48,495 nucleotides of DNA from Candidatus Coatesiibacteriota bacterium (GTDB lineage Bacteria; RBG-13-66-14; B26-G2; WVWN01; G020348885): contig CP070755.1 of assembly GCA_020348885.1 (NCBI GenBank), positions 2,453,616 through 2,502,110 of the forward strand, given 5' to 3'. This document shows, one piece after another, positions 7,105-40,404 of the stretch. The notes beneath the pieces were generated by a model. It saw nothing but the letters and a program-made list of their open reading frames with translations. It was not told the origin of the DNA and did no database searches. Position numbers and translations under genes: made by a program. Position 1 is the stretch's first letter; each line of letters opens with the position of its first letter.

Positions 7105-8268
7105 TTATTTACCCGCTAACGGCGAAACCTCCAGCAGACGCCGCACAATCGCCGGTAGTATTCGTACTAAACGTTCGATCTCCTCTTCAGTGTTATACCG
7201 CCCCATGCTTATCCGGATGGAACCGCGGGCCACCTCCGGTTTGATACCCATAGCAAGGTGTACGTGCGACGGTTCCGGCGACCCGGAACTGCACGCCGAG
7301 CCTGTACTTACAGCGAAGCCCTCCGCGTCGAGAGCCAGAAGGATTGCTTCGCCATCTAGGCCGGGGAAACATACGTTCACCGTCCCGGGTAATACGTTCT
7401 CCGGGTGACCGACGATTATTGCTTCGGGCATATCTTCGTTAACCGCTTTTACCAGCCGTTTGCGGAGTTTGCCGAGGTGGTCCGCTTCTCGCTCCTGCCC
7501 ATTGACGGCCATCTCGAGGGCCTTGGCCAACCCGACAATTCCGGCGGCGTCGGTTGTACCGGCCCGACGCCCGCCCTCCTGATGCCCCCCGTGGATGATC
7601 GGCTCGAGTTCGACGCCGGAACGTACGTACAGGGCCCCTACGCCCTTAGGGCCGTAGAACTTGTGGGCCGCGATAGCCAGCATATCGGCATTAAGTTGCC
7701 CGACGTTCACCGGCAACTTACCGATCGATTGTACCGCGTCCGTGTGGAATAGAACGCCCCGTTCGCGGCAAATCCTGCCCAGTTCCGTAATCGGCTCGAC
7801 GGTCCCGACTTCGTTATTCGCGTGCATTACGCTAACGAGGACGGTATCGTCGCGAATAGCCGCTTCCAAATCGCCGGCGTTCACCGTCGCGGTCTCATCC
7901 ACCGGCAAGTAAGTTACGTCCCACCCTTCCTCCGCGAGCCAATCGCAGGGTTCCAGTACCGCCGGATGTTCCACCGGCGTCGTGATGACGTGGCGGCCCC
8001 TGTCGCGATAATTGTACGCGGCTCCTATAACGGCGAGGTTGTCCGCTTCGCTGCCGCCCGCCGTGAAGACGATTTCGTCGGGAGACGACGCGCCGAGGAG
8101 CCCCGCCACCTGCTCGCGTCGTTTCGCGACTTCGCGGCCGACCGCTTGTCCGAGTCGGTGGATACTCGACGGGTTGTAACCCTTTTCGGTGAAGAAAGGC
8201 GACATTTCCTCGACGACGGCCGGGTCGCAGACGGTTGTCGCGTTGTTGTCAAGATATACTTCGTTCAT
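7105..8268 (-). CDS. nifS: Cysteine desulfurase (NifS/IscS class)
   Basis: PLP enzyme that takes sulfur from cysteine as a persulfide for Fe-S clusters and thio-cofactors. It is 387 residues, normal for the family. Visible features: N-terminal YLDNNATT, His101 in VEHPAV, Asp177 in HTDAVQ, the PLP lysine Lys203 in AHKFYGPKG, RRAGT (234-238), and the mobile-loop cysteine Cys326 in STGSACSSG, the pattern of group I (NifS/IscS) enzymes. No iscU- or nifU-like scaffold gene adjoins it. Instead it heads a run with DUF948, YtxH, DUF389 and a cysteine-less aconitase-like gene. Start ATG 8268 lies about 18 nt after a predicted transcription start. The window has a second desulfurase of the SufS type at 36557-37735. 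Confidence 0.95.
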   Translation of the reverse strand: MNEVYLDNNATTVCDPAVVEEMSPFFTEKGYNPSSIHRLGQAVGREVAKRREQVAGLLGASSPDEIVFTAGGSEADNLAVIGAAYNYRDRGRHVITTPVEHPAVLEPCDWLAEEGWDVTYLPVDETATVNAGDLEAAIRDDTVLVSVMHANNEVGTVEPITELGRICRERGVLFHTDAVQSIGKLPVNVGQLNADMLAIAAHKFYGPKGVGALYVRSGVELEPIIHGGHQEGGRRAGTTDAAGIVGLAKALEMAVNGQEREADHLGKLRKRLVKAVNEDMPEAIIVGHPENVLPGTVNVCFPGLDGEAILLALDAEGFAVSTGSACSSGSPEPSHVHLAMGIKPEVARGSIRISMGRYNTEEEIERLVRILPAIVRRLLEVSPLAGK

Positions 8269-33024: not shown

Positions 33025-33612
33025 ATGAAAGAAGCTTACGGGCCGTACGAAATAGCGGAAATGCTGGGCGTAGCACCTTCTTCGGTAGGTACGTGGATAG
33101 ATAAAGGATTTCTTGAAGCTTTCAAAACCCCGGGTGGACACCGCAGGATATACAGAGAAGACCTAGTTCGCTTTTTAAACCAACAAAACATACCCGTACC
33201 GAACGAAGTAAAAGGAGACCTCGTTAGAATACTCATTATTGAAGATGAAATCGAAGTATCGGAAATGATAGAGAGGGCTTTATCGAATTACGAAGGTATA
33301 GAAATCTATTCGGTTAACGACGGTATTGCCGCGCTGTTGGAAATCGGCAGAAGACCGCCGGACATGGTTATATTGGACATAGTTATCCCGGGGATAGACG
33401 GCTTCGAGGTTTGTAAACGAATTACCCGCGATAAAATACTTAAAACGAAAATTCTCACGATGTCCGGCAAAATCGAACCCGACGATGTATCCAAGTTATT
33501 GGAATCCGGCGCTAACCGATTCCTCAGGAAACCGTTTAGCGTTGAAGATTTGACGCGGACGGTGGACGACCTGCTAGTAGAGATTAAAGAAAGCTTCGTC
33601 GATTTGGCTTAG
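33025..33612 (+). CDS. Excisionase/MerR-type HTH fused to a response-regulator receiver domain
   Basis: 195 residues. Residues 5-52 form a MerR/excisionase-like winged helix (YGPYEIAEMLGVAPSSVGTWIDKG, then the wing GGHRRIYREDLVRFL). After a short linker comes a complete receiver domain (67-190): acidic pair Glu73-Asp74, phospho-acceptor Asp118 in ILDIVIPG, TMSG switch region and Lys169 in RKPF. The DNA-binding part precedes the receiver, the reverse of OmpR/NarL regulators. It is probably a phosphorylation-controlled transcription factor; no histidine kinase gene is nearby. GGGAGA is 8 nt before the ATG. AT-rich codon use compared with neighbours. Confidence 0.88.
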   Translation: MKEAYGPYEIAEMLGVAPSSVGTWIDKGFLEAFKTPGGHRRIYREDLVRFLNQQNIPVPNEVKGDLVRILIIEDEIEVSEMIERALSNYEGIEIYSVNDGIAALLEIGRRPPDMVILDIVIPGIDGFEVCKRITRDKILKTKILTMSGKIEPDDVSKLLESGANRFLRKPFSVEDLTRTVDDLLVEIKESFVDLA

Positions 33613-33661: not shown

Positions 33662-34198
33662 CTACTGTAGGCCCCGCCGACCGTACAAAAACAAATCCCC
33701 CGCCCGATAGATATCCATTTGCACGTCCGACCACGGCTCGCCCGTGAGGGTTAGCCCCCGCGCCAGGTTCTCGACGACGCCTGTCTCTAGGTTCGCCTTG
33801 ATGTTTTCGCCCGTCGCGACGTCGCCCGCGGAGACGCCCAACACCGTCAATATCGGCATACCCGAGTTTATCGCGTTGCGTCTGTATATCGCGCCGAAGC
33901 TCGCCGCGATAATAAGCCGTATCCCCAGCGCCTGGAAACAATCCACTGCGTGTTGACGGCTCGAACCCGCGCCGAAGTTCGCCCCCGTTACGATAACATC
34001 GCCCGGCGCCGCTTTCGACGGGAAATCCTCCCAACCGGGCAAGTTCCCGAACGCGTACTTCCCCATCTCGGCCACGTCGGTAACGGCTAGCCACTGATTG
34101 TGGTATATCTGGTCGGTGTCCACGCTGTCGTAGAGGTTTCCGTCTGCGTCCGTTATCGCCCAGACGTTCCCTTCAATGATAATAGGTTTACCGGTCAT
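33662..34198 (-). CDS. Aconitase-family dehydratase small subunit (LeuD/homoaconitase-type)
   Basis: 178-residue swivelling subunit of a two-subunit isopropylmalate/homoaconitate/dimethylmalate-type hydro-lyase. Seen: DTDQI (27-31), the hallmark GANFGAGSSRQHA (72-84) and FGAIYRRNAINSGMPIL (101-117). Together with the large subunit at 37775-39025 it would isomerise or dehydrate a 2-hydroxy-acid such as isopropylmalate, homoaconitate or methylmalate; residues around YRR may set specificity but I cannot read it. Unusually, its partner is not adjacent: four sulfur/redox genes lie between, all on the same strand with gaps of 4-39 nt. It begins 25 nt after the DsrK-like gene. Confidence 0.9.
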   Translation of the reverse strand: MTGKPIIIEGNVWAITDADGNLYDSVDTDQIYHNQWLAVTDVAEMGKYAFGNLPGWEDFPSKAAPGDVIVTGANFGAGSSRQHAVDCFQALGIRLIIAASFGAIYRRNAINSGMPILTVLGVSAGDVATGENIKANLETGVVENLARGLTLTGEPWSDVQMDIYRAGDLFLYGRRGLQ

Positions 34199-34223
34199 TC
34201 CAACTCCCCGGAAAAGATATCGT

Positions 34224-35555
34224 CTAACGGATAACCAGCGCGTTAAAGACCAACTCGCAGACGGCCTGGATTTCCACGCCCAGCGAGTACTTTTTGTTGA
34301 GTTCCAGAAGCTGGTCAGCGCAATTGTGGCAGGGCGTCGCGATGATTTTCGCGCCCGTAGCCCTTATCTGATCCGCCTTAACCGCGCCGGACTGCACGCG
34401 CCGGTCGCCGTATTCGCTCATAGAAAGCATTCCCCCGCCGCCGCCGCAACAAAAGTTCTGCTCCCGATTGGGCGTCATCTCGACAAAGTCGCTTGCGACA
34501 GCCGCCAGAATCTTCCTCTGCGGTTCGCTCACGCCGCCCCATCGGACGAGGTTGCATGGGTCGTGTAAAGTTACCCGTTCAACGTTCTTGCCCGGGTCGA
34601 TTTCGATTCTTCCCTCTTCGATATACTCGAGCATCACTTCGAGTATACTACGTACCCTAATCGGATACTCTTCACCGAGCCAGTTCGGGCCTTCCCATCT
34701 GAACGACCTGAAACCGTGACCACACTCCGATAAGACAACTTCCTCAGCTTCGAGCCGGGCCGCTTCGTCCATAACCTGTTTCGTTATCCGCGCCGCGGCG
34801 GGGTCGTCGCCCGAGTAAAGACCGTAGTTGGTTACGTCGTAAAATTTACTCGACATCGTCCAGTTTTCACCTGCCGCGCGAAAAACCCCGGCGGCCGCCG
34901 AAAGCGACAGCGGGAAGAACTTCACCTCGCGTGGGTTAACGAGGTAGAAGACCCTCTTGCCCGGTTCGTCCACATGGATACGGACATCCTCGTCGCCCGT
35001 CTCGAGTTGAAGGTCTTCGGAAAGCCAGGCCGCGGTCGCTTTCAACTCCTCGACCGTTATCGCCATCTGGTTACCGGTATTTATTTGGTTGTCCACGACC
35101 GCTTGCAGATTCGGAGGGACTTCCGCCGCGGCCGCGACTACGTTCCGTCCCGTCCGGATTATCGCTCCCACATCGGCGCCGACGGAGCAATTAAGCCCGC
35201 ACCGCCCACAACCGGTACACCGGCCGTAAACCGCTTCCACGATTTCATCGAACGCGGACTGCGTCAGCTCCTTGGCTCCCACCAACCAGGGCGCTAAGCG
35301 GCCGACGGCGCTGTGGTAACGCCGGAAGTGGCGGACGACCTTCGCGGCCTTCGCGGCCGGCAAGTTCTCGGGAACCGGATCGGTCAGATAGACGTGACAG
35401 GTCTCACCGCATAGTCCGCATTTGACGCAAGCGTCCATGTGGTACGCGGCAAGGTCCCTCAGTGGTTCACGAAGGGCGGCGCGCGCCGCCGCCGTCGCTT
35501 CCTGGGGGTCGTCTTCAGGCCTTAGCAAATCGATCGTTTCTTTTTTTATAACCAT
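34224..35555 (-). CDS. dsrK: DsrK/HdrD-like iron-sulfur reductase subunit
   Basis: 443 residues. Two [4Fe-4S] ferredoxin-type motifs (Cys43, 46, 49, 53 and Cys113, 116, 119, 123) are followed by a CCG domain with Cys334, Cys369-Cys370 and Cys409, 412 (HDPCNL, CCGGGGG, CHNC), plus Cys278. CCG domains hold the noncubane cluster that splits disulfides in heterodisulfide reductase HdrD and act on the DsrC trisulfide in DsrK. The cytoplasmic protein would take electrons from the membrane partner encoded 4 nt upstream. A DsrC gene in the same operon makes DsrK the better name than GlpC or HdrD. Symbol by similarity. Confidence 0.85.
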   Translation of the reverse strand: MVIKKETIDLLRPEDDPQEATAAARAALREPLRDLAAYHMDACVKCGLCGETCHVYLTDPVPENLPAAKAAKVVRHFRRYHSAVGRLAPWLVGAKELTQSAFDEIVEAVYGRCTGCGRCGLNCSVGADVGAIIRTGRNVVAAAAEVPPNLQAVVDNQINTGNQMAITVEELKATAAWLSEDLQLETGDEDVRIHVDEPGKRVFYLVNPREVKFFPLSLSAAAGVFRAAGENWTMSSKFYDVTNYGLYSGDDPAAARITKQVMDEAARLEAEEVVLSECGHGFRSFRWEGPNWLGEEYPIRVRSILEVMLEYIEEGRIEIDPGKNVERVTLHDPCNLVRWGGVSEPQRKILAAVASDFVEMTPNREQNFCCGGGGGMLSMSEYGDRRVQSGAVKADQIRATGAKIIATPCHNCADQLLELNKKYSLGVEIQAVCELVFNALVIR

Positions 35556-35559
35556 TTAT

Positions 35560-36183
35560 TTATTCGGCGCGCCCGGCGGGGAACGTCCCGCGGTAACCCA
35601 ACCGACGCCCCAGGTCGAAACGGGCGACCGGGCAGAAGAGGACGTGGCGCAGCTTGCCCAACGGTATATAGAAAGCCACCACAGCGCCGACGAGCAGGAA
35701 CGTACCGGCGTTTATGACGTTTAGTTCGTGAAGCGAACCTATCCCCAGATAAACCGCGACGGCGAACGCCGCGAAGTAATCGTCGAAGTCGCTTATCGGC
35801 CGGAGGTTCTTCGAGAAAAAGCGCCTGACGAACAAAAACGACGTCGCAGCCGCCGCGAACGCCAGAAAACCGCCGAGAGGTATCGGCGCTATCGGCGGCG
35901 CCGTCGGTTTAATTAATAGAACTACTACTTTCAAAACCGCAACCACGACGCCGAGATGCATAACCATACCGACCGCGAACTTGAAAGGATGGCGGCGGGC
36001 GGCCTCTTTTCGCGCGGGGGACATCGCGGCCGTGAAGTTATAAAGAACGCCCCGGGCGGAGCTGCCGGCCCGGGCGCTGTAGTCCTTCCTCCCGCCGCCC
36101 CACGCCGCTAATAGTTGCCACGTCAGCAACGCGGCGGCCCAGACGAGGCTCGATGCGACTATAATCCTTTCTGCTGTTAACAT
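35560..36183 (-). CDS. dsrM: DsrM/NarI-like membrane cytochrome b subunit (short form)
   Basis: 207 residues with about five membrane helices. Histidines at 76, 152 and 180 sit in or next to helices (MVMHLG, SLHELN, KLRHVLF) and could bind b-type hemes; the end FDLGRRLGYRGTFP is typical of the DsrM/HdrE/NarI group. It should oxidise menaquinol and pass electrons to the DsrK-like subunit. It is clearly shorter than classical DsrM (about 330), so it may be a minimal or HmeC-like form. It lies 33 nt after dsrC and 4 nt before the dsrK-like gene. Confidence 0.78.
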   Translation of the reverse strand: MLTAERIIVASSLVWAAALLTWQLLAAWGGGRKDYSARAGSSARGVLYNFTAAMSPARKEAARRHPFKFAVGMVMHLGVVVAVLKVVVLLIKPTAPPIAPIPLGGFLAFAAAATSFLFVRRFFSKNLRPISDFDDYFAAFAVAVYLGIGSLHELNVINAGTFLLVGAVVAFYIPLGKLRHVLFCPVARFDLGRRLGYRGTFPAGRAE

Positions 36184-36216
36184 TTAATACGTATCCCGAT
36201 CAAACCCGAAGCGGTC

Positions 36217-36525
36217 TTATACGCACCCGTCCGGTTTGGGCAGACCGGCGACGCGGCAAGCCCCTCGGGCGGGGCCGGCGGTAAAAAGCTTGTATATATG
36301 GCGTACGCCGACGCCGAGTTCCTGGCAAATAAGACGTACCGGCGGCGCCAGGTCGTGCTCTTTCCAGTAATCGCGGATAAAATTAACTATCTTCCAATGG
36401 TCTTCGGACATTTCGTCGATGCCCTCTTCCTCGGCTATCGCGCGGGCGACTTCGTCGTCCCAGAGCTCCGGCGCTACCATAAAACCGTCGTTATCGAAGT
36501 CGATGTTCTTATCGCCTACTTGCAT
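36217..36525 (-). CDS. dsrC: DsrC sulfur carrier protein
   Basis: 102 residues. It follows the DsrC/TusE pattern: DFDNDGFMVAPELWDDEVA, then MSEDHWKIVNFIRDYW, VRLICQELG and the flexible C-terminal arm GACRVAGLPKPDGCV. Both arm cysteines are present, Cys90 and the penultimate Cys101, spaced by ten residues. TusE proteins have only the penultimate one, so this is a true DsrC able to form an internal disulfide or trisulfide. It shuttles sulfur or acts as redox substrate of the DsrMK complex. GAGGAG lies 7 nt before the ATG. No dsrAB, tusBCD or dsrEFH is in the window. It follows a SufS-like desulfurase by 31 nt. Confidence 0.95.
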   Translation of the reverse strand: MQVGDKNIDFDNDGFMVAPELWDDEVARAIAEEEGIDEMSEDHWKIVNFIRDYWKEHDLAPPVRLICQELGVGVRHIYKLFTAGPARGACRVAGLPKPDGCV

Positions 36526-36556
36526 TCGTTTTCTCCTCGCAATCTCCGCGGCTTTT

Positions 36557-37735
36557 TTATTGACGGTCGGCCGCTATTTCTGCGACCGCGTTAACGGCTT
36601 TTTCTATATGCTCGTCCGTATTGAAAGGGCCTACTGAGAATCGAACCGTCCCCCGCGGCGCCGAACCGTGGAACTCGTGTATGAGCGGCGCGCAGTGTAA
36701 ACCGGTCCTCGTCTGAATCCCATATTCGACGTCTAGGATAGTCCCGACGTCGGACGCGTCGTAATGCTCCACCGATACCGACAAGGTCGCGACCCGTTCT
36801 TTGAGGTTCTTGGTACCCCACAGGCTTACGCCTTTGATTTCACGAAGCCCGGTTTGGAGTTTCCCGAAAAGCCCCATTTCATGCTCGTATATACTCGCGG
36901 TCCCGCGTTTCTGTACCCAATCCAGACCCGCGGAAAGACCCGCGATACCTGCCAGGTTCAGCGTACCGGCTTCCAGACGGTAAGGATACTCCTCAAGGTG
37001 ATACGGCACGGCGCTCCGTACACCGGTCCCCCCGTAAATAGTCCCTTTAACCTCAGCGTCGTCGGCGACGCAGATTCCGCCGGTACCGGTAGGGCCGAAT
37101 AATCCTTTATGCCCGGTAAACACCAGAAAGCTAACGTTGCACTCGGCCATATCGATCGGAAGAACGCCGGCCGACTGGGCCGTATCCACAGCGAACGGGA
37201 CGCCCTCCTCTTCGCACACGGCGCCGATAGCTTTGATATCCTGCACGACACCCGTTACGTTGGAAGCGTGATTGACGACCACAAGTTTCGTATTCGGTTT
37301 GATAGCTTTTCGTATATCTTCCGGGTCAATGTAACCGTCGGCGTCCGGTTTCACGTAAGTAGCCTCGGCGCCTTCGCGGACTTTATGGTTCACGGGTCGA
37401 ATAACCGAGTTGTGTTCGAGTACGGTAGTAACGACGTGGTCGCCCGGGCCTACCACACCGTTAATAATAAGATTTAGGCTCATCGTCGCGTTCATCGTGA
37501 AGACGAGCCTGTTTGGGTCCTTTTCGACGCCGGCGTCGATCAGGCTCTTATTAAAGAACGCGGAAAACTTCTTCCGCGTTCCGTGTATCATCTGCTCGGC
37601 GTTAATCGCAAGGTCGCACCCCGTACGTCCAGGGTTCACGCCGTTGTCCCGGTAAAAGTCGCGGACCGTATCGTGTACCACGTCCGGTTTCGGGAAGCTG
37701 GTCGCCGCGTTATCCAGGTAAATTATCTCGTCCAC
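36557..37735 (-). CDS. Cysteine desulfurase-like class V aminotransferase (SufS/Csd type)
   Basis: 392 residues, PLP-dependent. YLDNAATSFPKP start, His108 (LEHNS), Asp184 (AVDTAQS), PLP Lys210 (TGHKGLFGPTGTGG) and Cys348 in TRTGLHCAP, which is the group II (SufS/Csd) loop. It probably makes persulfide from cysteine. Its position directly before dsrC suggests that DsrC, or something it serves, is the acceptor. It matches the Csd-like subfamily of class V transferases whose substrates are not all proven, so selenocysteine lyase activity is an alternative. It follows the large dehydratase subunit gene by 39 nt. Confidence 0.9.
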   Translation of the reverse strand: MDEIIYLDNAATSFPKPDVVHDTVRDFYRDNGVNPGRTGCDLAINAEQMIHGTRKKFSAFFNKSLIDAGVEKDPNRLVFTMNATMSLNLIINGVVGPGDHVVTTVLEHNSVIRPVNHKVREGAEATYVKPDADGYIDPEDIRKAIKPNTKLVVVNHASNVTGVVQDIKAIGAVCEEEGVPFAVDTAQSAGVLPIDMAECNVSFLVFTGHKGLFGPTGTGGICVADDAEVKGTIYGGTGVRSAVPYHLEEYPYRLEAGTLNLAGIAGLSAGLDWVQKRGTASIYEHEMGLFGKLQTGLREIKGVSLWGTKNLKERVATLSVSVEHYDASDVGTILDVEYGIQTRTGLHCAPLIHEFHGSAPRGTVRFSVGPFNTDEHIEKAVNAVAEIAADRQ

Positions 37736-37774
37736 TTCGTACTCCCGTCTCTACCCGTGTGGCGGGCGGAATAT

Positions 37775-39025
37775 CTAGCCCCGCGGGTCCGTTATCTCGC
37801 CGCGCAACGCGCTGACGGCCACGGTCGCGGGACTCGCGAGGTATGTGTCGCCGGCGCCCTGTTTTCCGGCGAAGTTCCGATTCGACGTAGAGAGCTGTAC
37901 TTCGCCTGCGCCGGTCATACCGATTTGCCCGGCGGCGCACCCGCCGCAACCCGCGTTGGATACTATCGCGCCGGCGTCGAAGATGTCCCTCAAAACGTCG
38001 CCGGCCATCATCTCGTCCCATACCTCGCGGGTGGCCGGGACGACTTTAAGCATAACGTCAGAGTGAACCCGCTCGCCGCCCAGGATATTCGCCGTAATCG
38101 ACATATCGTTAAGGCGCCCGTTGGTACAGGAACCGATGAAGCCGGACCCTATCGTCGTTCCCTCGACGGCCCGGACCGGCTTCACGTTCTCCGGGCTGGG
38201 CGGACACGCTATCATCGGCTCCAGCCCCTCGACGTCGAACTCCAGCGTTTTCATATAATCGGCGCCCGCGTCGGCGTAAACGGGTTCGACTTCTTCGCCC
38301 GCCCGTTTCGAAACCCACTCGAGGGTCGCGTCGTTCGGCGGTATCAATAACGCGATCGCGCCCATCTCGGTACCCATGGACGCGAGGGTTATTCGCTCGT
38401 CCACTTCCATCGCGTCGATGAACTTGCCGTATAGTTCTACTGCGCAACCGAGAGCGCCCGCCGAACCCATCTCGCCAATCAGATATAATATAACGTCCTT
38501 GGCGGATACGCCGGCGTAAGGGGCGCCCTTCAAGTCGATTCGAATAGTAGGCGGGACCTCGAACCACGTCCGGCCGGTTTTGAACGCGAAGGCTATGTCG
38601 GTATCGCCCATGCCCTGACCGAAACAGCCGACGGCCCCAAGGATGTTCATGTGGCTGTCGGTCCCGACGACGGTCCCGCCGGGCCGGGCCAATCCCTGCT
38701 CCATCAATACGTGCGAACCTATACCGGCGTCTACGTCGAAGACGCGAATCCCTTGCTCGGCGGCGAAGTCCCGGCATATCTGCTGGTTGTTGGCGTACGC
38801 GATGGTGTTGGCCGGCGCGTTGCAGTCGAACGTGAAGAACGTCTTGTCGGCGTCGGCCACGTTCTCGCCCTCGTAGTGGGCACGGAAGTTCTTGACGACG
38901 TTGGCACCGCCGAAGTCCCGGGCCGAGCGAACGTCCAAATCGAGCCACACGACGGCTCCGGGCCGGATGTCGGCGCCGGGGTCCGCGTGTGCCGCTATAA
39001 TATGTTCGATTATCGTGCGGGGCAT
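37775..39025 (-). CDS. Aconitase-family dehydratase large subunit (LeuC/homoaconitase-type)
   Basis: 416 residues, the length of archaeal-type isopropylmalate/homoaconitate dehydratase large subunits. Substrate/catalytic motifs: GTDSHMN (121-127), GQGMGDTD (137-143), DVILYLIGEMG (177-187). The [4Fe-4S] ligands are Cys300 in GSCTNGR and Cys360 and Cys363 in NAGCGGC; all are present, so the enzyme should be active with the small subunit at 33662. Substrate may be isopropylmalate, homoaconitate or a related acid; no leuA, leuB or homocitrate synthase gene is in the window. First gene of a six-gene operon with a near-consensus promoter. It has a shortened, cluster-less homolog at 4694-5389. Confidence 0.92.
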   Translation of the reverse strand: MPRTIIEHIIAAHADPGADIRPGAVVWLDLDVRSARDFGGANVVKNFRAHYEGENVADADKTFFTFDCNAPANTIAYANNQQICRDFAAEQGIRVFDVDAGIGSHVLMEQGLARPGGTVVGTDSHMNILGAVGCFGQGMGDTDIAFAFKTGRTWFEVPPTIRIDLKGAPYAGVSAKDVILYLIGEMGSAGALGCAVELYGKFIDAMEVDERITLASMGTEMGAIALLIPPNDATLEWVSKRAGEEVEPVYADAGADYMKTLEFDVEGLEPMIACPPSPENVKPVRAVEGTTIGSGFIGSCTNGRLNDMSITANILGGERVHSDVMLKVVPATREVWDEMMAGDVLRDIFDAGAIVSNAGCGGCAAGQIGMTGAGEVQLSTSNRNFAGKQGAGDTYLASPATVAVSALRGEITDPRG

Positions 39026-39053
39026 AGCTTATCTATAAAACAGGACAGCGGGG

Positions 39054-39082
39054 AATATATACATATCGCACCGTAATGTCAA
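39054..39082 (-). promoter_or_regulatory. Promoter of the dehydratase-desulfurase-DsrCMK operon
   Basis: Minus strand TTGACA (39082-39077), 17-nt spacer, TATATT (39059-39054), predicted leader about 22 nt. One of the best promoter matches in the window, which implies the operon is well expressed. Confidence 0.75.
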
Positions 39083-39098
39083 CCCCGCCGTTATAACA

Positions 39099-39725
39099 TT
39101 ACCCATCAGGCGTATCGGGGTTAGAAGAAACCTCTTCCGCCGGGGGCCCCTCGGGTTCCACGTCCGGCCGTATCTCCGGTCCCGGGGTTTCGGCCGGCGG
39201 CGCTAACGTACGCCGCTTCCTCTCCGCCGGAACCGGGCCCATCTCGCCGGGGGGTTCGGGACGCCGCGGCGTTTCGTACCGGCCGTACAACTCGTCGGTA
39301 TATCCGGCGGACACCGGCGCCAGCGAAACGCGAACCGCGACTATAGTTTCGCGCAGCCACTCCAGGTCGGTCTCGGTCGGCGGCGGATTGATATCGTTCA
39401 CTCCTTCCAGAAACGTTTCGGCCGGCTCCAGGTCCCGATGTGCGTCGATAAGTATCCGCCTTAACTCCGGATCCACGGTCCGCCGCGCGGCGGACAACAG
39501 GTCCGCACGGGCTTCGCGGACGAGTTCGAGGGCTCGCTGGTCCTCTCGGCCGACCGATACGAGGGCCTGGTCGAGGACCGCCTCCACTGAGGCGGCCCGG
39601 GCCGCCAGCTCTTGCCGTTTGAACCACTCCTCCGGCGGCGGTTCCTCCGTCGGCGGCGGCGTTTCCCCGGCACACCCCAATAGGATAATAAACCCGAACG
39701 CGGTTATATGAAGGGCTTTACGCAT
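39099..39725 (-). CDS. Proline-rich lipoprotein of unknown function
   Basis: 208 residues with a signal sequence and lipobox LLGC (lipidated Cys18). A Pro/Glu-rich linker follows, then a helical middle (about 35-145, Ala/Arg/Glu rich) and a long Pro/Glu-rich tail (150-208) expected to be disordered. It resembles helical-bundle lipoproteins that span or line the periplasm, but has no nameable domain. Its start overlaps the end of the methyltransferase gene by 8 nt, so the two are co-translated. High GC content and low-complexity sequence inflate open frames on the other strand here. Confidence 0.75.
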   Translation of the reverse strand: MRKALHITAFGFIILLGCAGETPPPTEEPPPEEWFKRQELAARAASVEAVLDQALVSVGREDQRALELVREARADLLSAARRTVDPELRRILIDAHRDLEPAETFLEGVNDINPPPTETDLEWLRETIVAVRVSLAPVSAGYTDELYGRYETPRRPEPPGEMGPVPAERKRRTLAPPAETPGPEIRPDVEPEGPPAEEVSSNPDTPDG

Positions 39726-40404
39726 CGGCTGGCTTATCCACCGTCAGAACCGTTACAGTCGCGAATATCATACTTTTTACCACAACCGCGGAGAACCCGG
39801 CATTTCGGAACCGCGCCGCCAGCTCGTCGGCCGTAACGCTCTCGCGGATAGACCGGGTAAAGTATAAGTACGCCGACAGGTCGTCCGCAAGTATAAACGC
39901 GCATAAAGGGATATATACGGCGAGTGCCAACCGGTAAAAAACGCCGAATACGCCCGGCGGGACCCGTAAAACGTCGTATATTACGGCCCGCCCGCCCGGT
40001 TTCAGAACCCGGTAACCCTCCTCGATTGCCGCGCCGTCGCCGTCAATAGGCCGGAAGACGAAACCGGCCGCGATCCCGTCGAAAACGCGGTCGCGAAACG
40101 GCAGCACGCGGACGTCGGCCCGGACGTATAGACCGGCCCCTTTCGCCGAAGCGAACCCCAGCATCTCGGGCGAGCGGTCTATCCCGATTATTGTCGAGCC
40201 GGGGTGGGCGCGCCGAAGTTCCCGGGACGAGACACCGGTCCCCGTCCCCATGTCGAGTATCAACCCCGGCTTCACTAGCGCCGACGCGGTCCGGCGTACC
40301 CGGCGGTCCAATCCGAAGGTCATCACCCGATTGAGCAGGTCATAGCGCCGTGCGGTGCGCCCGTACACCTCGTCCAACTCGGATTGGGCTTTCGGGTTTG
40401 CCAT
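39718..40404 (-). CDS. Demethylmenaquinone/ubiquinone methyltransferase-like protein (MenG/UbiE)
   Basis: 228 residues. N-terminal VYGRTARRYDLLNRVMTFGLDRR is the UbiE/MenG signature, followed by SAM motif I LDMGTGTGVSS, motif II DVRVLPF and RVLKPGGRAVIYD. It would methylate demethylmenaquinone in the last step of menaquinone synthesis. The usual final motif GG..G.HxA is not evident, and the end is more diverged than in classical UbiE, so another class I C-methyltransferase is possible. A menaquinone source would suit the DsrM-like subunit of the neighbouring operon. Confidence 0.78.
   Translation of the reverse strand: MANPKAQSELDEVYGRTARRYDLLNRVMTFGLDRRVRRTASALVKPGLILDMGTGTGVSSRELRRAHPGSTIIGIDRSPEMLGFASAKGAGLYVRADVRVLPFRDRVFDGIAAGFVFRPIDGDGAAIEEGYRVLKPGGRAVIYDVLRVPPGVFGVFYRLALAVYIPLCAFILADDLSAYLYFTRSIRESVTADELAARFRNAGFSAVVVKSMIFATVTVLTVDKPADA

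Follow-up and report, generated by a model that had tools for sequence, protein, structure and literature searches.

Why should a cysteine desulfurase, the sulfur carrier DsrC and a DsrMK-like membrane reductase be encoded between the two subunits of an aconitase-family dehydratase? This arrangement is present in the genome of a Candidatus Coatesiibacteriota bacterium (GCA_020348885.1, CP070755.1, a single contig of 2.6 Mb), within a stretch of 48,495 nucleotides (positions 2,453,616 to 2,502,110, forward strand) that we refer to throughout as the window. An initial annotation of this DNA read the six genes as one operon, in which a sulfur relay working without DsrAB would build or recycle a thiol compound on a carbon skeleton supplied by the dehydratase. 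The relay stands, as a desulfurase, DsrC and a DsrMK-like pair without DsrAB, but the part given to the dehydratase does not: the middle four genes, not the six-gene operon, form the functional unit, and the dehydratase is a bystander, incidental to the sulfur relay. Sequence comparison inclines us, on balance, to a DsrAB-independent DsrC cycle that would be fed by the desulfurase and reset by a heterodisulfide-reductase-like complex, reductive in direction and probably quinol-linked. We found no description of this four-gene module in the open-access papers that we searched; one may exist in a subscription review.

Recurrence of the four-gene core

Used as query against GTDB genomes, the DsrC of the operon yielded 80 loci from other genomes. 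The set of desulfurase, DsrC, DsrM-like and DsrK-like genes recurs in metagenome-assembled genomes (MAGs) from a dozen or so phyla, their labels including Planctomycetota, Zixiibacteriota, Gemmatimonadota, Eisenbacteria, CSSED10-310, Oligoflexia, Acidobacteria, Aminicenantes, Bacteroidales (rumen included), Ignavibacteria and KSB1, among others. No other neighbour family is nearly as frequent at the 80 loci, the next commonest being found at nine. The desulfurase lies at most 6 kb from DsrC at 28 of the 37 loci with full flanks, the estimated chance expectation of such proximity being ~0.4% for a single gene in a genome of 2-5 Mb. It is placed downstream on the same strand at 19 loci with both DsrM and DsrK, downstream on the opposite strand at 17 and upstream at 8, and this repeated relinking in three positions argues for function, not inertia.

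Linkage was not used in the co-occurrence analysis, for which thresholds were at least 400 bits for the module-type desulfurase and at least 450 bits for DsrK. By these thresholds the two proteins have an identical distribution among 117 relatives, being present in four, three of which belong to one order. In rumen Bacteroidales DsrC and DsrM are linked, and DsrK and the module-type desulfurase are kept elsewhere in the genome. The DsrK and desulfurase trees (the latter a quick version) have two main clades in common, and between the four proteins pairwise identities show correlations of 0.67-0.80.

DsrC and its proposed sulfur source

Both arm cysteines of DsrC are kept in 81 of 81 sequences. 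A protein above the cut-off of the DsrA model is present in none of the 49 genomes with this DsrC type, including the whole of the ~90% complete Coatesiibacteriota genome, which bears out the lack of dsrAB noted in the initial annotation as far as DsrA is concerned (DsrB was not searched apart). The upstream DsrC cysteine is otherwise described only together with DsrAB, members from organisms without DsrAB having almost always Ala, Ser or Thr in its place, with few exceptions (PMC3397948). The present two-cysteine set without DsrA is a large further exception to that rule.

The desulfurase scores 425.4 bits against the TIGR01977 cut-off of 377 bits and belongs to that family, so the label 'SufS-like' first given to it is withdrawn. 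Its pyridoxal phosphate (PLP) lysine K210 and catalytic C348 are kept in all 51 desulfurases. There is precedent for the transfer envisaged here, as Escherichia coli IscS with cysteine persulfurates Allochromatium vinosum DsrC at the penultimate cysteine in vitro (PMC3397948). A second desulfurase, of NifS type and just under the NifS cut-off, is encoded at window 7105-8268 (minus strand), and is probably the housekeeping desulfurase of the genome. A housekeeping role in Fe-S assembly for the module desulfurase was considered and rejected, given this separate NifS-type enzyme and no scaffold gene among the conserved neighbours.

The reductase subunits

The best hidden Markov model matches for the membrane subunit and the CCG subunit are HmcE/TmcC and HmcF/TmcB, respectively, all of them below the equivalog cut-offs (282/750, 268/735, 30/275 and 32/240 bits, score/cut-off, for HmcF/TmcB followed by HmcE/TmcC). 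Of the names DsrM and DsrK in the initial annotation we retain a DsrMK-like pair; the two proteins lie under every curated cut-off and nearer to the Hmc/Tmc families. The DsrK-like protein conserves two 4Fe-4S motifs (C43/46/49/53 and C113/116/119/123) and C334/C369/C370/C409/C412, with the Pfam CCG domain above cut-off, and its predicted model (pLDDT 90) matches EtfD (Z 27.4, 3.3 Å over 388 residues) and HdrB (5odc_B; Z 19.8, 2.9 Å over 236). The predicted model of the DsrM-like protein (pLDDT 93.5) matches NarI (Z 12.0, 5.5 Å over 162) and the EtfD membrane domain (Z 9.4), both middling values for a helical bundle. Its H65, H76 and H180 are invariant, so that one heme b, and perhaps a second, is plausible in a subunit of this predicted fold. 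When solved structures were searched by sequence, EtfD was a weak match for the DsrK-like protein and nothing credible was found for the DsrM-like one.

Proposed DsrC cycle

The cycle that we infer from this gene content, its conserved residues and its predicted folds would begin with the desulfurase, which would take sulfur from cysteine, leaving alanine, and place it as a persulfide on the penultimate C101 of DsrC. Attack on the persulfide by C90 would either release H2S or hold the sulfur as a trisulfide, leaving DsrC oxidised, and the CCG protein on its predicted NarI-like heme-b anchor would re-reduce DsrC, most likely with electrons from membrane quinol. The net reaction would be cysteine + 2[H] -> alanine + H2S, with neither sulfite nor DsrAB taking part. 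DsrMK(JOP) is known to reduce the trisulfide of DsrC (PMC10504309).

The best single clue to the electron acceptor comes from two Aegiribacteria MAGs (L079, 9389-17412; L099, 9381-17360), in which desulfurase-DsrC has no DsrMK nearby and converges with FlxABCD-HdrABC. The facing genes run HdrB-HdrC-FlxA-FlxB-(FlxC)-FlxD-HdrA, FlxC being named by position, with no family match. The carrier and sulfur source stay and the disulfide reductase appears to have been exchanged, FlxABCD-HdrABC seemingly performing the reducing step, which points to the DsrC disulfide or trisulfide as electron acceptor in both cases. An interaction of FlxABCD-HdrABC with DsrC has been shown experimentally in Desulfovibrio vulgaris, according to work cited in PMC10504309. 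A broader proposal, that the module is a widespread anaerobic pathway of energy conservation or redox disposal with cysteine as terminal electron acceptor, is one that we put forward tentatively and with some doubt. Sulfur from cysteine, carried on two-cysteine DsrC, would there be reduced to H2S by a quinol-linked or electron-bifurcating heterodisulfide reductase, yielding alanine and sulfide with no sulfite reductase involved.

Several points weigh against the proposed cycle. Every locus comes from a MAG contig, and the selection was made by similarity to a single DsrC. Five genomes (G135, G157, G162, G163 and G169) carry DsrC and the desulfurase and no DsrK at threshold; some of these absences perhaps stem from genome incompleteness. 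The DsrK-like and DsrM-like proteins fall under the DsrK and DsrM models (222.6 against 400 bits for DsrK; a weak DsrM match in one of 40 module membrane subunits), and the acceptor may therefore not be DsrC. As for the quinol, MqnA and MqnD are absent from the Coatesiibacteriota genome, and its MenA-like and UbiE-like proteins score below the cut-offs, so that quinone synthesis is not established there. A UbiA search gave unspecific matches, and no men cluster surrounds the MenA-like gene. Two genes upstream of the operon and on the same strand, window 39718-40404 (minus) encodes a UbiE/MenG-like methyltransferase, again below cut-off, for which a link to quinone is possible.

Comparison with known systems

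By the tests made, the module acts like a DsrC-heterodisulfide reductase system that stands outside both the Dsr sulfite-reduction pathway and Tmc/Hmc. With the DsrC-DsrMK(JOP) system of sulfate and sulfite reducers it shares a two-cysteine DsrC, a CCG reductase with two 4Fe-4S motifs and, as predicted, a NarI-like cytochrome b anchor, DsrM lying beside DsrK. It differs in the absence of DsrA from 49 of 49 genomes, the lack of DsrJOP neighbours, a desulfurase as the apparent sulfur source, and DsrM and DsrK proteins that score under the respective models. TmcABCD and HmcABCDEF of Desulfovibrio provide the best model matches for both reductase subunits and, like FlxABCD-HdrABC, are postulated partners of DsrC in that genus (PMC6470260). 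However, the module lies far under their equivalog cut-offs, its genomes lack DsrA, and a multiheme cytochrome c gene, a trait of Tmc and Hmc, is a conserved neighbour nowhere across the 80 loci. FlxABCD-HdrABC in the fermentative growth of D. vulgaris resembles the module as proposed in its DsrC disulfide chemistry, Hdr reductase and non-sulfite setting, but is soluble and NADH-linked rather than membrane-bound, and a link to a desulfurase is not in the literature examined.

The Tus relay (IscS-TusA-TusBCD-TusE-MnmA) likewise has a cysteine desulfurase as source and a carrier of the DsrC/TusE fold. TusE lacks the second cysteine, whereas the module DsrC always has it together with a linked, dedicated reductase, and the module has neither TusA nor TusBCD among its conserved neighbours. 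HdrDE of methanogens combines a CCG reductase with a cytochrome b, as predicted for the module, and reduces a disulfide from a membrane carrier; in place of CoM-S-S-CoB, the module presumably has a protein disulfide as acceptor. Among solved structures, EtfD of Mycobacterium (PDB 9ojn) comes nearest in fold to the reductase and is one of the nearest to the anchor; there both parts are fused, whereas the module has two proteins whose partner is presumably DsrC, not an electron-transfer flavoprotein.

The flanking dehydratase

Orthologues of the large subunit LeuC1, searched for in 117 genomes, are 61-64% identical in four same-order relatives and 46-59% further out. In 11 other genomes LeuC1 and the small subunit LeuD1 lie side by side as an ordinary pair (with LeuD1 partly masked in L154), and a split of the pair around DsrC is found at none of the 80 DsrC loci of other genomes. 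The same six-gene order, sought in relatives, does not recur and is not kept even in close ones. In G001-G003 the adjacent pair lies away from DsrC, near a second LeuCD pair and genes for citryl-CoA lyase-like and isocitrate/homoisocitrate-type dehydrogenase proteins, with a succinyl-CoA ligase subunit also nearby in G002. The same-order relatives G003 and G004 keep the dehydratase without DsrC, DsrK or the module-type desulfurase. L155 (3264-9922) and L156 (3441-11588) combine LeuC1-LeuD1-LeuC2-LeuD2 with CitF, which scores above its cut-off, and CitE-like genes, giving two LeuCD-type hydro-lyases within one citrate operon.

LeuC1 itself is below the equivalog cut-offs of HacA (334/550 bits) and LEU2 (330/611 bits). 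A homocitrate or isopropylmalate synthase, whose presence elsewhere in the genome the initial annotation had considered, is missing from the Coatesiibacteriota genome at equivalog level, its sole HMGL-like protein falling below every cut-off for either synthase. An arginine in the specificity loop of the small subunit marks homoaconitase; in LeuD1 this loop reads NQWLAVTD, against GPYLRTTD in homoaconitase, and the HacB-type arginine is absent. Because the pair is adjacent in relatives, stands in a citrate-lyase context, has no accompanying synthase and lacks the loop arginine, we conclude that its split in this genome is a local rearrangement, by chance, and that gene context elsewhere points to a citrate-metabolism hydro-lyase. 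The core would have come to lie between leuC1 and leuD1 by rearrangement, sharing their promoter. An insertion element was rejected as the cause, the flanking repeats being short chance matches only. The sole HMGL-like protein of the genome (L115, 4186-5592) is a 468-residue synthase-like enzyme, perhaps, by its resemblance, a Re-citrate synthase.

Alternative explanations

A biosynthetic relay would have DsrC pass sulfur in the manner of TusE to MnmA, for tRNA 2-thiouridine, or to Fe-S assembly, the membrane pair merely recycling oxidised DsrC. DsrC and TusE do form one family (TIGR03342), TusA-like and DsrE-like genes are in the cluster at three Bacteroidales loci, and DsrM overlaps the tRNA-modification gene queA in some rumen Bacteroidales. 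We nevertheless judge such a relay unlikely, if worth serious attention, since the second DsrC arm cysteine is kept where most TusE-type members from organisms without DsrAB have Ala, Ser or Thr (PMC3397948), MnmA, IscU and SufU are not among the conserved neighbours at the 80 loci, and a dedicated membrane or bifurcating reductase is more in keeping with a stoichiometric flux than with thiolation in trace amounts. The direction might instead be oxidative, with the membrane pair passing electrons from the DsrC dithiol into the quinone pool, or the module might handle polysulfide or sulfane sulfur, the desulfurase being mainly a persulfide carrier. Dsr proteins do act oxidatively in sulfur oxidisers (PMC10504309), and DsrE2-like, TusA-like and HdrA-like genes are added in some Bacteroidales. 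This appears improbable, as DsrA is missing from all 49 genomes, leaving no DsrAB to carry sulfur onward, DsrEFH, DsrL and Sox are not conserved neighbours at the 80 loci, and cysteine desulfuration yields sulfane sulfur rather than consuming any.

Production or recycling of a thiol coenzyme with a dehydratase-derived skeleton, the idea of the initial annotation, draws on the common promoter and the short gaps seen in this single genome. It is very hard to sustain when no other genome examined joins dehydratase and relay, genes for citrate lyase and an isocitrate-type dehydrogenase accompany the dehydratase, a homocitrate synthase is missing at equivalog level, and the small subunit lacks the HacB-type arginine. 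That the four core genes are neighbours by chance, without a common function, is scarcely credible in view of their linkage at 28 of 37 loci, three arrangements, identical presence in 117 relatives and correlated divergence. The reductive, desulfurase-fed DsrC cycle is the reading that we favour on balance.

Organisation of the operon and locus variants

The reading frames and coordinates confirm the order of six genes on one strand as originally described, with gaps of 4-39 nt (39, 31, 33, 4 and 25 nt in order) behind a near-consensus promoter (Table 1). The cysteines named at the outset are likewise present, namely C300, C360 and C363 of the large subunit, C348 of the desulfurase and C90 and C101 of DsrC. 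Convergent with the operon end, window 33025-33612 (plus strand) encodes a MerR-like helix-turn-helix DNA-binding part joined to a response-regulator receiver domain.

Table 1. Features of the Coatesiibacteriota operon in window coordinates, in order of transcription.
Feature	Position	Strand	Remarks
Sigma-70-like promoter, TTGACA-17-TATATT	39054..39082	-	11/12 score; ~28 nt 5' of first gene
LeuC1, LeuC/aconitase-family large subunit	37775..39025	-	NF001614/TIGR02086 above cut-off; outside relay
PLP cysteine desulfurase TIGR01977 (K210, C348), proposed sulfur donor to DsrC	36557..37735	-	
DsrC, arm cysteines C90 and penultimate C101, sulfur/redox carrier	36217..36525	-	TIGR03342 above cut-off
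Membrane subunit, NarI-like predicted fold, HmcE/TmcC/DsrM type, invariant H65, H76, H180	35560..36183	-	
HdrD/DsrK/HmcF/TmcB-type reductase, two 4Fe-4S motifs and CCG motif C334, C369-C370, C409-C412	34224..35555	-	
LeuD1, LeuD-type small subunit, split from LeuC1 by four-gene core	33662..34198	-	TIGR02087 above cut-off

Other loci vary in what surrounds the core. Three from Bacteroidales (L084, 9937-15684; L090, 12582-18306; L104, 12635-18306) have the module plus DsrE2-like, TusA-like, MvhD-like and HdrA-like genes. In each, DsrC is directly preceded by the gene for a second class-V aminotransferase of 488-506 residues. At L071 (9332-11193) and six other rumen Bacteroidales loci queA follows DsrC-DsrM, with an overlap of 4 nt in L071. 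L103 (7198-10525) and L110 (7201-10514) have DsrC beside a convergent module-type desulfurase, no DsrMK nearby, and a large possible sensor protein encoded upstream of DsrC.

Implications

DsrC and DsrMK-like genes serve as markers of sulfite and sulfate respiration, and a DsrA-less, desulfurase-fed module would alter such readings of genomes. If the proposed cycle is true, it would represent a new source of sulfide for rumen and sediment bacteria, and may offer a picture of the role of DsrC-DsrMK apart from sulfite reduction.

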